From an uncultured Bacteroidota bacterium (lineage in GTDB: Bacteria; Bacteroidota; Bacteroidia; JABEUT01), in contig CAIPDV010000019.1 of assembly GCA_903863935.1 (NCBI GenBank), forward strand, positions 1-63,482: a stretch of DNA of 63,482 nt, given 5' to 3'. The notes under the pieces are model-generated. The model did no database searches. It saw only the letters and a list, made by a program, of their open reading frames with translations, and was not told the DNA's origin. Positions 1 through 47,250 of the stretch are shown in pieces. Position 1 is the first letter of the stretch. The number at the start of each line of letters is the position of its first letter. Position numbers and translations under genes: made by a program.

Positions 1-134
1 TAATCAAGGGCTGGGGTCTTGATAATTACCAACGTCATACATGGGTGATGTTCCTGTTTTTTATGCCCGTTTTCTTTCTTGGAATTTATTCAAAGTACAA
101 GAAAGAGAAACAAGATGAAATGAAAAAAGATTAG
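1..134 (+). CDS. 3' end of an unidentified membrane protein (partial)
   Basis: The window opens inside a reading frame (first full codon at base 3) that ends at TAG 132-134. The visible 43 residues contain a hydrophobic stretch (WVMFLFFMPVFFLGIYSKY) followed by a charged tail rich in Lys and Glu, as expected for a last transmembrane helix with a short cytoplasmic end. The family cannot be recognised from this piece. It is followed within 85 bases by an attC-like inverted repeat, so it could be the gene of an integron-type cassette, but this is inference. It could equally be an ordinary chromosomal gene. Confidence 0.5.
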   Translation, partial: IKGWGLDNYQRHTWVMFLFFMPVFFLGIYSKYKKEKQDEMKKD

Positions 135-216
135 GTCACCCAAACAAATAGCATGAACTCCTAATAAACAGAAGTGAAGTATTCAAACTGTTGCCTTGTG
201 TACCAAAACACGAACG

Positions 217-410
217 CATAACACTCGTTTTAAGTAATAGGGGGCAGACGGAAGTGCAATCATCGGCAAACCATTACTCAGCAGCAGTTGTCAGCGGACG
301 TGAGCCAATCAGCATTTTTTCTTAACTTCATCATCGGCAGCATTAACCAGCTTCAGTTGTGGTCGGACGTTCCCTGCATCCCCCTACTACTTAAAGCGGC
401 GAACGTTATG
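217..410 (+). other. attC-like recombination site (long imperfect hairpin)
   Basis: A CATAAC at 217-222 is matched by GTTATG at 405-410. Inside these, TTTAAGTA (229-236) pairs with TACTTAAA (388-395), and GGGGG (240-244) pairs with CCCCC (380-384). The order is that of integron attC sites: outer AAC/GTT core, inner paired arm, unpaired bases between, and a long variable loop. At about 194 bp it is longer than most described attC sites, and the outer cores fit RYYYAAC/GTTRRRY only in part. It sits after one reading frame and about 70 bases before another, as in a cassette array. No integron integrase is visible in the window. Confidence 0.5.
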
Positions 411-480
411 GGCAAGTTTAAGAATAGACACGACTAAACAAATAATAAACAGAATATTAATAACTTAAAAGGACAATAAA

Positions 481-612
481 ATGATTGAAATTCAACTTGA
501 CAATGGAACGACAATTCCTTTACACGGAAAATCTCTTTTGATACTTCCAGCAGGAAGTCGGACAAATCATATCATTAACAATGAAGATGATTACAATGTA
601 ATTAATAAGTAA
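481..612 (+). CDS. Small hypothetical protein, 43 aa (possible cassette gene)
   Basis: An ATG at 481 preceded by an A-rich leader with AAAAGGA opens a 43-residue frame beginning MIEIQLDNGTTIPL and ending at TAA 610-612. No family is recognised. The start lies about 70 bases after the right core of the attC-like site, the usual place for a cassette gene. No second attC-like site follows before the transposase relic at 668, so the cassette may have been truncated by that insertion. It may also be too short to be a functional gene. Confidence 0.35.
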   Translation: MIEIQLDNGTTIPLHGKSLLILPAGSRTNHIINNEDDYNVINK

Positions 613-667
613 GCTATCGGTTAATAATTCCACAAAAATAGTAAAAATAAGATTCCAAAGTACTTTT

Positions 668-1261
668 TTAACTGGGAAGTAGCTCAATTAGCTTGTTGGC
701 TTTGTGGTCGGGGAGTTTAGAGAGGGTAGTTTTCAGCCATTGCAGGGGTTCTACACCTCTGAGTTTGCAAGTACCCATGAAGGAATAAAGCATAGCAGAA
801 CGCTGTGCCGCCTCATGGCTGCCTGCAAAGAGGTAGTTTTTCCTGCCCAGTGCAACAGGGCGTATCACGTTTTCCACCAAGTTATTATCTATTTCCAACT
901 TGCCGTCTGTTGCATAAAGGCTGAGCTTTGCCCACCTTCCCAACGCTGCGGCTTCCTCAGTCTTTACACGGTGCGGTGCGATAACCTTTTGTAATTCTAA
1001 TTTTACAACCTCTGCGGTTAATCCGCCTTTTGCATAATCAATTGGCAGGTCTGTAACTTTGTTTTCAATGTCTGACAGTTTTTTATTGTCAAGGTGCGTT
1101 TGCATATCAGAGCCTTTTATTCTACTTTTAGAATTATCCCAGTCTTTTTCGGTGGTCATAATCCCGGTTGATGTCCTGAAACGAGGTAACCCGTTTCCGG
1201 TAACATCAACCATAATGTAAGTGCCTTTACTTTGCTCTCTAAGATAAAACCGTGTATTCAT
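668..1261 (-). pseudogene. Chimeric relic: tyrosine-recombinase N-terminus fused in frame to IS66 transposase C-terminus
   Basis: The 197-residue frame has two unrelated halves. Residues 1 to about 94 look like the Arm DNA-binding domain of Bacteroidota phage-type integrases (FYLREQSKGTYIMVDV, TGIMTTEKDW, GGLTAEVVKLELQ). Residues from about 103 onward are the end of an IS66-family transposase (DGKLEIDNNLVENVIRP, ALGRKNYLFAGSHEAAQR, then a Leu-rich tail ending LIELLPS). The IS66 part keeps the last acidic residue of its DDE triad but lacks both aspartates, and the integrase part lacks its whole catalytic domain, so neither enzyme can be active. The junction is near 955-980. A TATCTTTG -7 box lies upstream on the minus strand (1305-1312), probably inherited from the integrase. 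Confidence 0.8.
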
Positions 1262-1406: not shown

Positions 1407-1480
1407 TGGTCCCGGAGGGATTCGAACCCCCAACTTCCTGATCCGTAGTCAGGTACTCTATCCAGTTAAGCTACGGGACC
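1407..1480 (-). tRNA. tRNA-Arg (anticodon ACG)
   Basis: The minus strand folds into a 74-base cloverleaf with acceptor stem GGTCCCG/CGGGACC, discriminator A and T-loop TTCGAAT. The anticodon stem CCTGA/TCAGG encloses loop CTACGGA, so the anticodon is ACG, read as inosine-CG for Arg codons CGU/CGC/CGA. The 3' CCA is not encoded. It lies 6 bases downstream of the DinB-like gene on the same strand and is followed by a terminator, so it could be the end of a longer transcript. Confidence 0.95.
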
Positions 1481-46038: not shown

Positions 46039-47250
46039 TTAAGCTGTTGCTAATTTTGATTCAAGTTTATTTGCAAAACCCTGTAAATATTGGTTTGTTA
46101 TCTTAGCATAAACCTGTGTAGTTTTAATATTTGTATGTCCTAACCATTTACTTACAGCTTCAATAGGTACTTCATTGCTTAATAAAATGGTAGTAGCACA
46201 AGTATGCCTTGCAACGTGGTGAGTAAGGTTCTTTTTAATGCTTGTGAGGTCTGCAATTACTTTTAAATAGGCATTTAGTTTTTGATTTGAAAAAGTTGGC
46301 AGAACCTTATTAAATACTATCCTTTCGGGGGAATCTTCATATTTACTAATAATTTGCAATGCAGGGGGTAATAATGGTAGGGTAACAGGTTCGTTTGTTT
46401 TTTCCTGCTCAATTCTTAGAACATATTTTCCATTCTCTTTAGTAATCCTGTCTATCGTAAGGTTTTGGGCATCCTCAAAACGTAATCCCGTATAAACAGA
46501 GAAAATGAATATATCCCTTACCCTTATTAGGCTTGTATTTCCGCCTAAAGAATGAGAAATTATATTTTTTAGTTCCTCATCAGTTAAAAAGGTTCTTGTT
46601 GAATTGACTTTTTTTAACTTAAAATTTGAGTAGGGGTTCTTAAATATAAAGCCCTCTTTTATTGCGTTTATAATAACAGTTCTAAGCCTCGTATGATGTT
46701 TATTTACCGTATTCCTCATCATAGTATCTTCGCCCTTGTTTACTTGCTGATTCAATAGGAATAAATCAAATTCCTTTATGAAACTGTAATCAATGTTTTC
46801 AATTAAAATATCATTCATCTTTTTCCCTTGTAAAAAATTCTCCAAATGGTTTTTTGTTGTCGTATATCCCACTATTGTTTCATTCACTACTTCACCCGCT
46901 TTTTTCAATCTTTCAATTAAACGTGAGTAACTATCCAAAAGGTAAGCATCCAGTTTATCTTTCTTAGTAAGGTAGTTTTTAATATTGTGGGCTGTTACAG
47001 GCTTTTTCTCTTTTTCTAACCTTTGGGCAATATCATGTACCTCCTGTTTAATATCTATCAGGGCTTTATTTACCTTATTGTTCTTCCAAACCTCTTGACT
47101 GGATACATTCCAGTCTTTAGGCTCACTATAATAGCCGGTTGCCACCTCTGATTTTTTACGGCTTACAGTTATGCGTAAATAAATGGGGCTTTTCCCGCCC
47201 TTTGCCTTTAGTTCATTAAGGTAGAGCTTTATACTAAGGTTGTTTATCAT
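46039..47250 (-). CDS. Tyrosine recombinase/integrase with Arm domain
   Basis: The 403-residue protein has an Arm-type DNA-binding N-terminus (SIKLYLNELKAKGGKSPIYLRI), a SAM-like core-binding domain (about 105-215) and a catalytic domain with Arg (TGLRFED), Lys (EQEKTNEPV), His-x-x-Arg (HHVARHT), His (WLGHTNIKT) and the nucleophile Tyr (QVYAKI). All catalytic residues are present. It lies 140 bases from tRNA-Ser, a usual integration target, and is transcribed away from it. It should catalyse integration of a small element including the downstream gene. Confidence 0.93.
   Translation of the reverse strand: MINNLSIKLYLNELKAKGGKSPIYLRITVSRKKSEVATGYYSEPKDWNVSSQEVWKNNKVNKALIDIKQEVHDIAQRLEKEKKPVTAHNIKNYLTKKDKLDAYLLDSYSRLIERLKKAGEVVNETIVGYTTTKNHLENFLQGKKMNDILIENIDYSFIKEFDLFLLNQQVNKGEDTMMRNTVNKHHTRLRTVIINAIKEGFIFKNPYSNFKLKKVNSTRTFLTDEELKNIISHSLGGNTSLIRVRDIFIFSVYTGLRFEDAQNLTIDRITKENGKYVLRIEQEKTNEPVTLPLLPPALQIISKYEDSPERIVFNKVLPTFSNQKLNAYLKVIADLTSIKKNLTHHVARHTCATTILLSNEVPIEAVSKWLGHTNIKTTQVYAKITNQYLQGFANKLESKLATA

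Follow-up and report, generated by a model that had tools for sequence, protein, structure and literature searches.

Integrons are described as rare or absent in most Bacteroidota, and in the Bacteroidetes proper only isolated integrases and one complete integron have been recorded (PMC9024848). Their attC sites are defined by the cores RYYYAAC and GTTRRRY (PMC3053210), while the I2 domain of the integrase has been credited with enabling single-strand recombination and is described as absent from all other proteins, with evolutionary intermediates lacking (PMC7790495). In the open literature, integrons of Bacteroidota appear just as a phylum name, as In0 elements or as one Salinibacter example, and no description of an integron-like system of the phylum was found there; subscription papers and preprints lay outside the scope of that search. 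XerA, with which the recombinase described below is also compared, is a single-site recombinase.

The DNA analysed here, referred to as the window, is the whole stretch of 63,482 nucleotides from base 1 onward of one contig (C19) in a Bacteroidota assembly of 126 contigs that is 98% complete and may miss contigs. A sequence-only reading had placed an attC-like cassette boundary near its start. The comparisons presented below indicate that the site is very probably the junction of two cassettes belonging to an integron-like system of the Bacteroidota.

The hairpin site in the window

The features under discussion are listed below, all on the plus strand unless marked otherwise; those with no other basis given are read from the window sequence.

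1-404 (+), 3′ part of the upstream cassette together with its hairpin site
216-413 (+), putative hairpin recombination site (core and arm detector; geometry common with the best-scoring sites)
216-222 (+), left core GCATAAC
223-224 (+), left spacer AC
225-236 and 238-244 (+), left stem
237 and 387 (+), A x C mismatch between both stems, A237 opposite C387 (the A is an invariant column in the 50-site alignment A2)
245-379 (+), inner segment, 135 nt
380-386 and 388-399 (+), right stem
400-404 (+), right spacer CGAAC
405-413 (+), right core GTTATGGGC
405-603 (+), downstream cassette, truncated, starting at GTTATGGGC (88% identity over 404-602 to an intact cassette in genome G495)
481-612 (+), truncated cassette gene, 43 aa (ORF and comparison with the 128-aa G495 homologue, MLEIQLDNGTTIPLHGKSFLILPAGS...)
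606-1261 (-), IS66-family transposase remnant that interrupts the cassette (Pfam; 606-660 repeated at 98% on contig C77, which belongs to the same genome)

The palindrome of CATAAC (217-222) and GTTATG (405-410) encloses an outer stem of 12 bp, in which TCGTTTTAAGTA (225-236) pairs with TACTTAAAGCGG (388-399) with two G-T wobbles, and an inner stem of 7 bp formed by TAGGGGG (238-244) and CCCCCTA (380-386). The positions, paired arms and long loop are thus as the sequence-only reading had them, and a detector of core and arm pairing, with thresholds of our own choice, scores the site at 16.4, compared with 10.0 for the second-best place in the window and a maximum of 13.4 over 80 Markov-simulated strands of 63 kb. 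The fold energy is unremarkable (z = -1.45). With the covariance model R1, built from the family of sites described below, the window site reaches no more than 9.9 bits (E = 2), its inner segment being longer than theirs and unrelated. Its membership of that family is supported by geometry, flanks and a shared cassette. First, the short left spacer, the right spacer of 5-6 nt and the mismatched invariant A match the geometry of the 90 best-scoring sites. Next, the termini are shared, as the GTTATGGGCAAGTTTAA after the core also starts many cassettes elsewhere, and the CACGAACGCATAAC before the site matches the flank of another site. Finally, the downstream cassette itself recurs between sites of this type.

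Rfam contains no match for the site, and neither BLAST nor a core pattern reveals a second copy in its own genome. BLAST with the whole site likewise returned nothing from the genome, its genus, 395 genomes of the phylum, phages or plasmids, since the sites have structure rather than sequence in common. Two hits (L022 and L023) were chance matches.

Cassettes flanking the site

The interpretation as a cassette boundary is borne out by G495, a genome from another Bacteroidia family, which holds a relative of the downstream cassette between two such sites. The 88% identity over window positions 404-602 starts at the right core, and the sites upstream of it are unlike by BLAST. The G495 cassette is intact: it has a 128-aa gene and lies between two sites that the model recognises (76 and 122 bits), and reverse-complementing the left core that closes it, GCCCATAAC, gives exactly the right core of the window. 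No viral contig matched a pattern made of the core and the cassette start.

The same comparison bears on a different view of the palindrome, in which it is a MITE or transposon end, or a transcription terminator, beside the IS66 remnant. The inverted repeats do adjoin that remnant and have no second copy in the genome; however, the G495 homology begins at the right core and runs on into the cassette, the same cores flank different genes across many genomes, Rfam yields no match and junctions match across arrays, and such an origin is scarcely credible.

Of the two short genes of the same orientation that had been proposed to flank the site, only the one at 481-612 is clearly real, as the truncated start of the cassette gene. 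The other, at 3-134, is an open frame of 43 aa that belongs to no family and continues past the contig end. Because the contig begins at window base 1, the upstream cassette lacks its visible 5′ end, which its left-core test would need. On the other side, the homology to G495 ends near 603 and the C77-repeated sequence, which is part of the IS66 remnant, starts at 606, so it was a transposable element that cut the second cassette short. Within the remnant, the ORF at 668-1261 (-) is a chimera of the Arm-DNA-bind_5 segment of a tyrosine integrase and the C-terminus of an IS66 transposase, as assigned by Pfam.

Searches of the window's genome by pattern, BLAST, family and model revealed no integron-type integrase, in agreement with the sequence-only reading, and neither a cassette-type recombinase nor a further site of the family; R1 has no match in this genome or its 10 congeners. 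The cassettes are stranded there, with neither a recombinase nor another site found, and probably either came by transfer or are what remains of a lost array. A tRNA gene at 1407-1480 (-) adjoins the integrase and IS66 remnants, and may have been the insertion point of an island that carried the cassettes in. A separate 407-aa phage-type integrase of the genome, at window positions 46096-46590 (-), lies outside the cassette family.

A family of hairpin sites in the Bacteroidota

Relatives were retrieved with the right core plus cassette start, AACGTTATGKGCAA, which occurs at 44 places in 395 Bacteroidia genomes. By eye, about half of these form the right-hand end of hairpin sites that agree in layout but differ in stem sequence, and one small contig has two of them at a distance of 425 bp. 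The right core GTTATGGGCAAGTTTAA begins many different cassettes in other Bacteroidia, as the check proposed for relatives of the site had envisaged, and the outcome named beforehand as refuting the reading, a lack of any second copy in relatives, did not occur. The other half or so of the exact matches appeared by eye to be due to chance, and places lacking pairing arms were dropped. Contigs with the found sites show tandem co-oriented arrays.

The collection comprises 101 sites, 90 of them with a detector score of at least 12. Most are about 136 nt long, the cores are 117-119 nt apart in 58 of the 101, and a left spacer of 0-2 nt is combined with a right spacer of 5-6 nt in 83 of the 90. In an alignment of 50 sites, the AAC, the A of the stem mismatch and the CGTT are invariant, and all 16 consensus pairs have compensatory changes on both sides (16/16), so that the hairpin stem is kept in structure rather than in sequence. 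The consensus contains 1x1 mismatches (columns 15/124, 22/117 and 25/114) and asymmetric spacers, and no plain single-base bulges. GTTRRRY fits only 4 of the 90 sites and RYYYAAC 3, so that the family lacks the canonical attC cores. Canonical attC sites near IntI loci gave too few clear examples for a second model, and those few mostly have near-symmetric spacers. In one array (L076, G516:C46) five sites with near-identical stems (AAGATTTATGAAATAAAAAAAAGGGGGG) follow different cassettes, like the homogeneous repeats of Vibrio.

Some sites also contain TAnnTTTG, the -7 promoter motif of the Bacteroidetes type. It lies on the plus strand of 18 of the 90 sites, at about positions 58-65, while the opposite strand has 4 and shuffled sequences 4.75. 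Given this enrichment, the following cassette may in some cases be transcribed from a promoter within the site.

Some of the relatives are metagenome bins. Matches to R1 occur in 42 of 60 class relatives. Among near-complete genomes of the phylum, closed ones included, they occur in 111 of 198 and in 67 of 103 genera, these counts being lower bounds; five out of five Bacteroidota isolate genomes have matches, with 7-46 sites each. It matches none of 25 non-Bacteroidota genomes, several of which have IntI.

Cassette junctions and content

If cassette circles opened at GTT, the bases after the GTT of one site should pair with the left core of the next, and not with the left core of their own site. 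The right core matches the next left core over 8-10 nt in 45 of 57 neighbouring pairs, compared with 6.4% for random partners, and in 37 of 46 pairs when the commonest core is omitted, while pairing inside one site usually extends over just 4 nt. The 12 pairs of the 57 that fail are perhaps explained by missed intervening sites. In G422 the junctions match in all six cassettes (6/6); GTTATAAGC and GCTTATAAC form a seventh match, by which the first junction lies 101 nt past the recombinase stop codon.

The 43 cassettes delimited by such junctions have a median length of 1055 bp and usually one gene, and the longest ORF is on the strand of the site in 40 of them. The products include a CAP12/Pycsar TIR protein, a Schlafen-type helicase, MerT-HMA, a LinB-like nucleotidyltransferase, a superoxide dismutase and an HNH nuclease, and others look by eye to be secreted by the type IX system. 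At L087, 156-2175 (-), a 948-bp cassette with a CAAX-protease gene is present in two tandem copies whose sites are identical, a pattern that re-insertion or duplication would produce. On a Chryseobacterium plasmid (L223, 20275-27725), a group II intron, IS110 and other transposase genes lie within the cassette array, and an element of about 110 bp, GTTGGGAAAAATCGCC, is inserted near several site cores.

The recombinase and an attI-like site

The arrays come after the gene of a tyrosine recombinase of about 370 aa and have the same orientation. Tyrosine recombinases of the class relatives match the integron integrase family in two pieces with a gap between them, and an alignment of nine candidates, most with sites nearby, retrieved 80 loci. 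Co-oriented downstream sites are present at 10 of 13 named Bacteroidota loci that have at least 2 kb of downstream sequence; downstream sites occur at none of 24 controls, of which one (L169) has a single stray detector match, upstream and on the reverse strand. At one exceptional locus (L106) the sites are on the side and strand contrary to that expected from the recombinase. Many contigs break less than 300 bp after the recombinase gene, as repeats would cause. In the closed genome G067 the gene at 147,670-146,590 is followed by 12 sites over 144,913-112,616, the closed genome G069 has a recombinase with four sites and two further site clusters without one, and a plasmid of Chryseobacterium sp. 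SNU WT5 bears the recombinase gene together with an array. The two G069 clusters, at 547-576 kb and 802-817 kb, are CALIN-like, with the complete array elsewhere in the genome. Relatives of the recombinase at L138, L141 and L144 are in records labelled Firmicutes, Undinarchaeales and Spirochaetia, either by transfer or by mis-binning.

At 12 loci an exact reverse complement, 9-10 nt long, of the first left core is found 64-138 nt after the stop codon of the recombinase gene and resembles an attI. The junction is often preceded by a TATA-A-A motif, as in TATAAACAA|GTT. The bases before the GTT differ between attI and attC, which suggests that exchange would take place, like that of integrons, at this G or immediately behind it.

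While the arrangement is that of an integron, the enzyme is not a typical IntI. The catalytic Lys motif and HxLRH are 58-59 aa apart in the family, compared with 99-101 aa in IntI proteins, IntI1 included, and 65-66 aa in Xer. The I2 (additional) domain near patch III is absent as judged from this spacing, alignments to IntI4 (2a3v) and TIGR02249 break at its position, and no protein among 100 relatives reaches the integron integrase cut-off. These properties argue strongly against a canonical cassette array inherited from an IntI integron, that is, a CALIN of attC sites without an integrase: although the cassette architecture, the attI position and the GTT core are identical to those of integrons, the core consensus is confined to 4/90 (GTTRRRY) and 3/90 (RYYYAAC) sites, the I2 domain is missing, and the family model matches none of the 25 genomes sampled outside the Bacteroidota, several of them with IntI, which makes such an inheritance highly improbable. 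The designation attC-like accordingly holds for a hairpin at a cassette boundary, whereas the sites and the recombinase differ from canonical attC and IntI in the defining features that were tested. It is for this reason that the system is regarded as a separate, integron-like one and not as an ordinary integron remnant: by its sequence features it would work like an integron and is outside the canonical family by the tested definition, namely the I2 domain and the core consensus.

The predicted structure of the recombinase has IntI4 (2a3v) as its best PDB match (E 1e-17), and by sequence archaeal XerA scores on par with IntI. The core of the enzyme reaches 217 bits with the XerA-type family NF040815, the cut-off of which is 220, and one member reaches 224. 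Together with the absence of the domain that lets IntI bind hairpins, the equal scores would fit a Xer-like recombinase that uses the sites as ordinary double-stranded DNA, the palindrome being a pair of inverted binding sites that stays unfolded. However, the stem sequences vary yet their pairing is kept, with double changes in each of the 16 pairs; the invariant mismatched A and the asymmetry of spacers of 1-2 and 5-6 nt are features that matter for a folded strand; and the attI flanks inspected are, by eye, free of such a hairpin stem. Use of the duplex is therefore considered unlikely, and recombination of a folded strand is preferred.

In a quick tree (one fast run, moderate support), IntI is placed among the I2-less proteins with Xer outside. 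The broader proposal, that these are widespread, overlooked integrons of the Bacteroidota with an I2-less hairpin recombinase bearing a HARP-like domain, and that they represent the grade from which IntI arose, is put forward tentatively and falls somewhat short of being our expectation.

The N-terminal domain

Most members of the recombinase family have about 90 extra N-terminal residues, among them a W(S/D)...W motif, and the fold predicted for this domain contains strands at residues 3-11, 14-20, 38-40, 45-49 and 67-69 and helices at 25-32 and 54-62. Its best match in the PDB is the HARP domain of SMARCAL1 (4o66; E 0.07, probability 0.82), followed by XPB bound to forked DNA (6p4f), and Pfam gives weak HARP and DUF5710 matches in 2 of 19 members each. 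These matches are only suggestive of a HARP-like domain, the assignment being below the usual significance, and this domain may share a function with the HARP and XPB regions.

Proposed mechanism and comparison with known systems

An array consists of the recombinase gene, an attI-like site about 100 nt past its stop codon, and then tandem co-oriented cassettes that end in hairpins. Each cassette starts with the reverse complement of the left core belonging to its own site, which is what a circle opened there would give. The recombinase would take the folded single strand of a site as its substrate and cut at G/TT of the right core, and circular cassettes would be inserted by it at attI or at an existing site. 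The HARP-like domain might help to recognise branched DNA, replacing the I2 domain of IntI.

More than half of the sampled Bacteroidota genomes carry cassette arrays of integron logic with an I2-less enzyme. This would add a large gene reservoir, with TIR effectors, a Schlafen-type helicase, MerT, nucleotidyltransferases and secreted proteins, which current integron finders may miss, and would offer a natural system for testing how hairpin recombination began. If the I2-less grade is indeed ancestral to IntI, the origin of integrons would have its missing intermediate.

Four described systems invite comparison. The HARP domain of SMARCAL1 and the fork-binding region of XPB are the top two structural matches of the recombinase N-terminal domain, but at an E of about 0.07 and as domains of eukaryotic or archaeal helicases. 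XerA, annotated as ‘site-specific tyrosine recombinase/integron integrase’ (NF040815), is the best family match of the recombinase core at 217 bits, whereas the Bacteroidota recombinases have an attI and cassette arrays behind them and usually the N-terminal domain of about 90 aa in addition. The Bacteroidota integrases reported with IntegronFinder as In0 elements belong to the same phylum, in that paper’s usage, and to integron function, although the arrays found here, in about half of the sampled genomes, are absent from that survey (PMC9024848). The closest counterparts are the integrons themselves, sedentary chromosomal ones and CALINs included. The Bacteroidota recombinase differs from theirs in having no I2 or additional domain, in its extra N-terminal domain and in being co-oriented with the cassettes, and the sites differ in cores other than GTTRRRY/RYYYAAC, in spacers of 1-2 and 5-6 nt and in a 1x1 stem mismatch with an invariant A. 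In common with integrons, however, are the tandem circularisable cassettes, a hairpin with a GTT core at each boundary, an attI beside the recombinase gene, arrays of tens of cassettes, clusters without an integrase and the occurrence on a plasmid.
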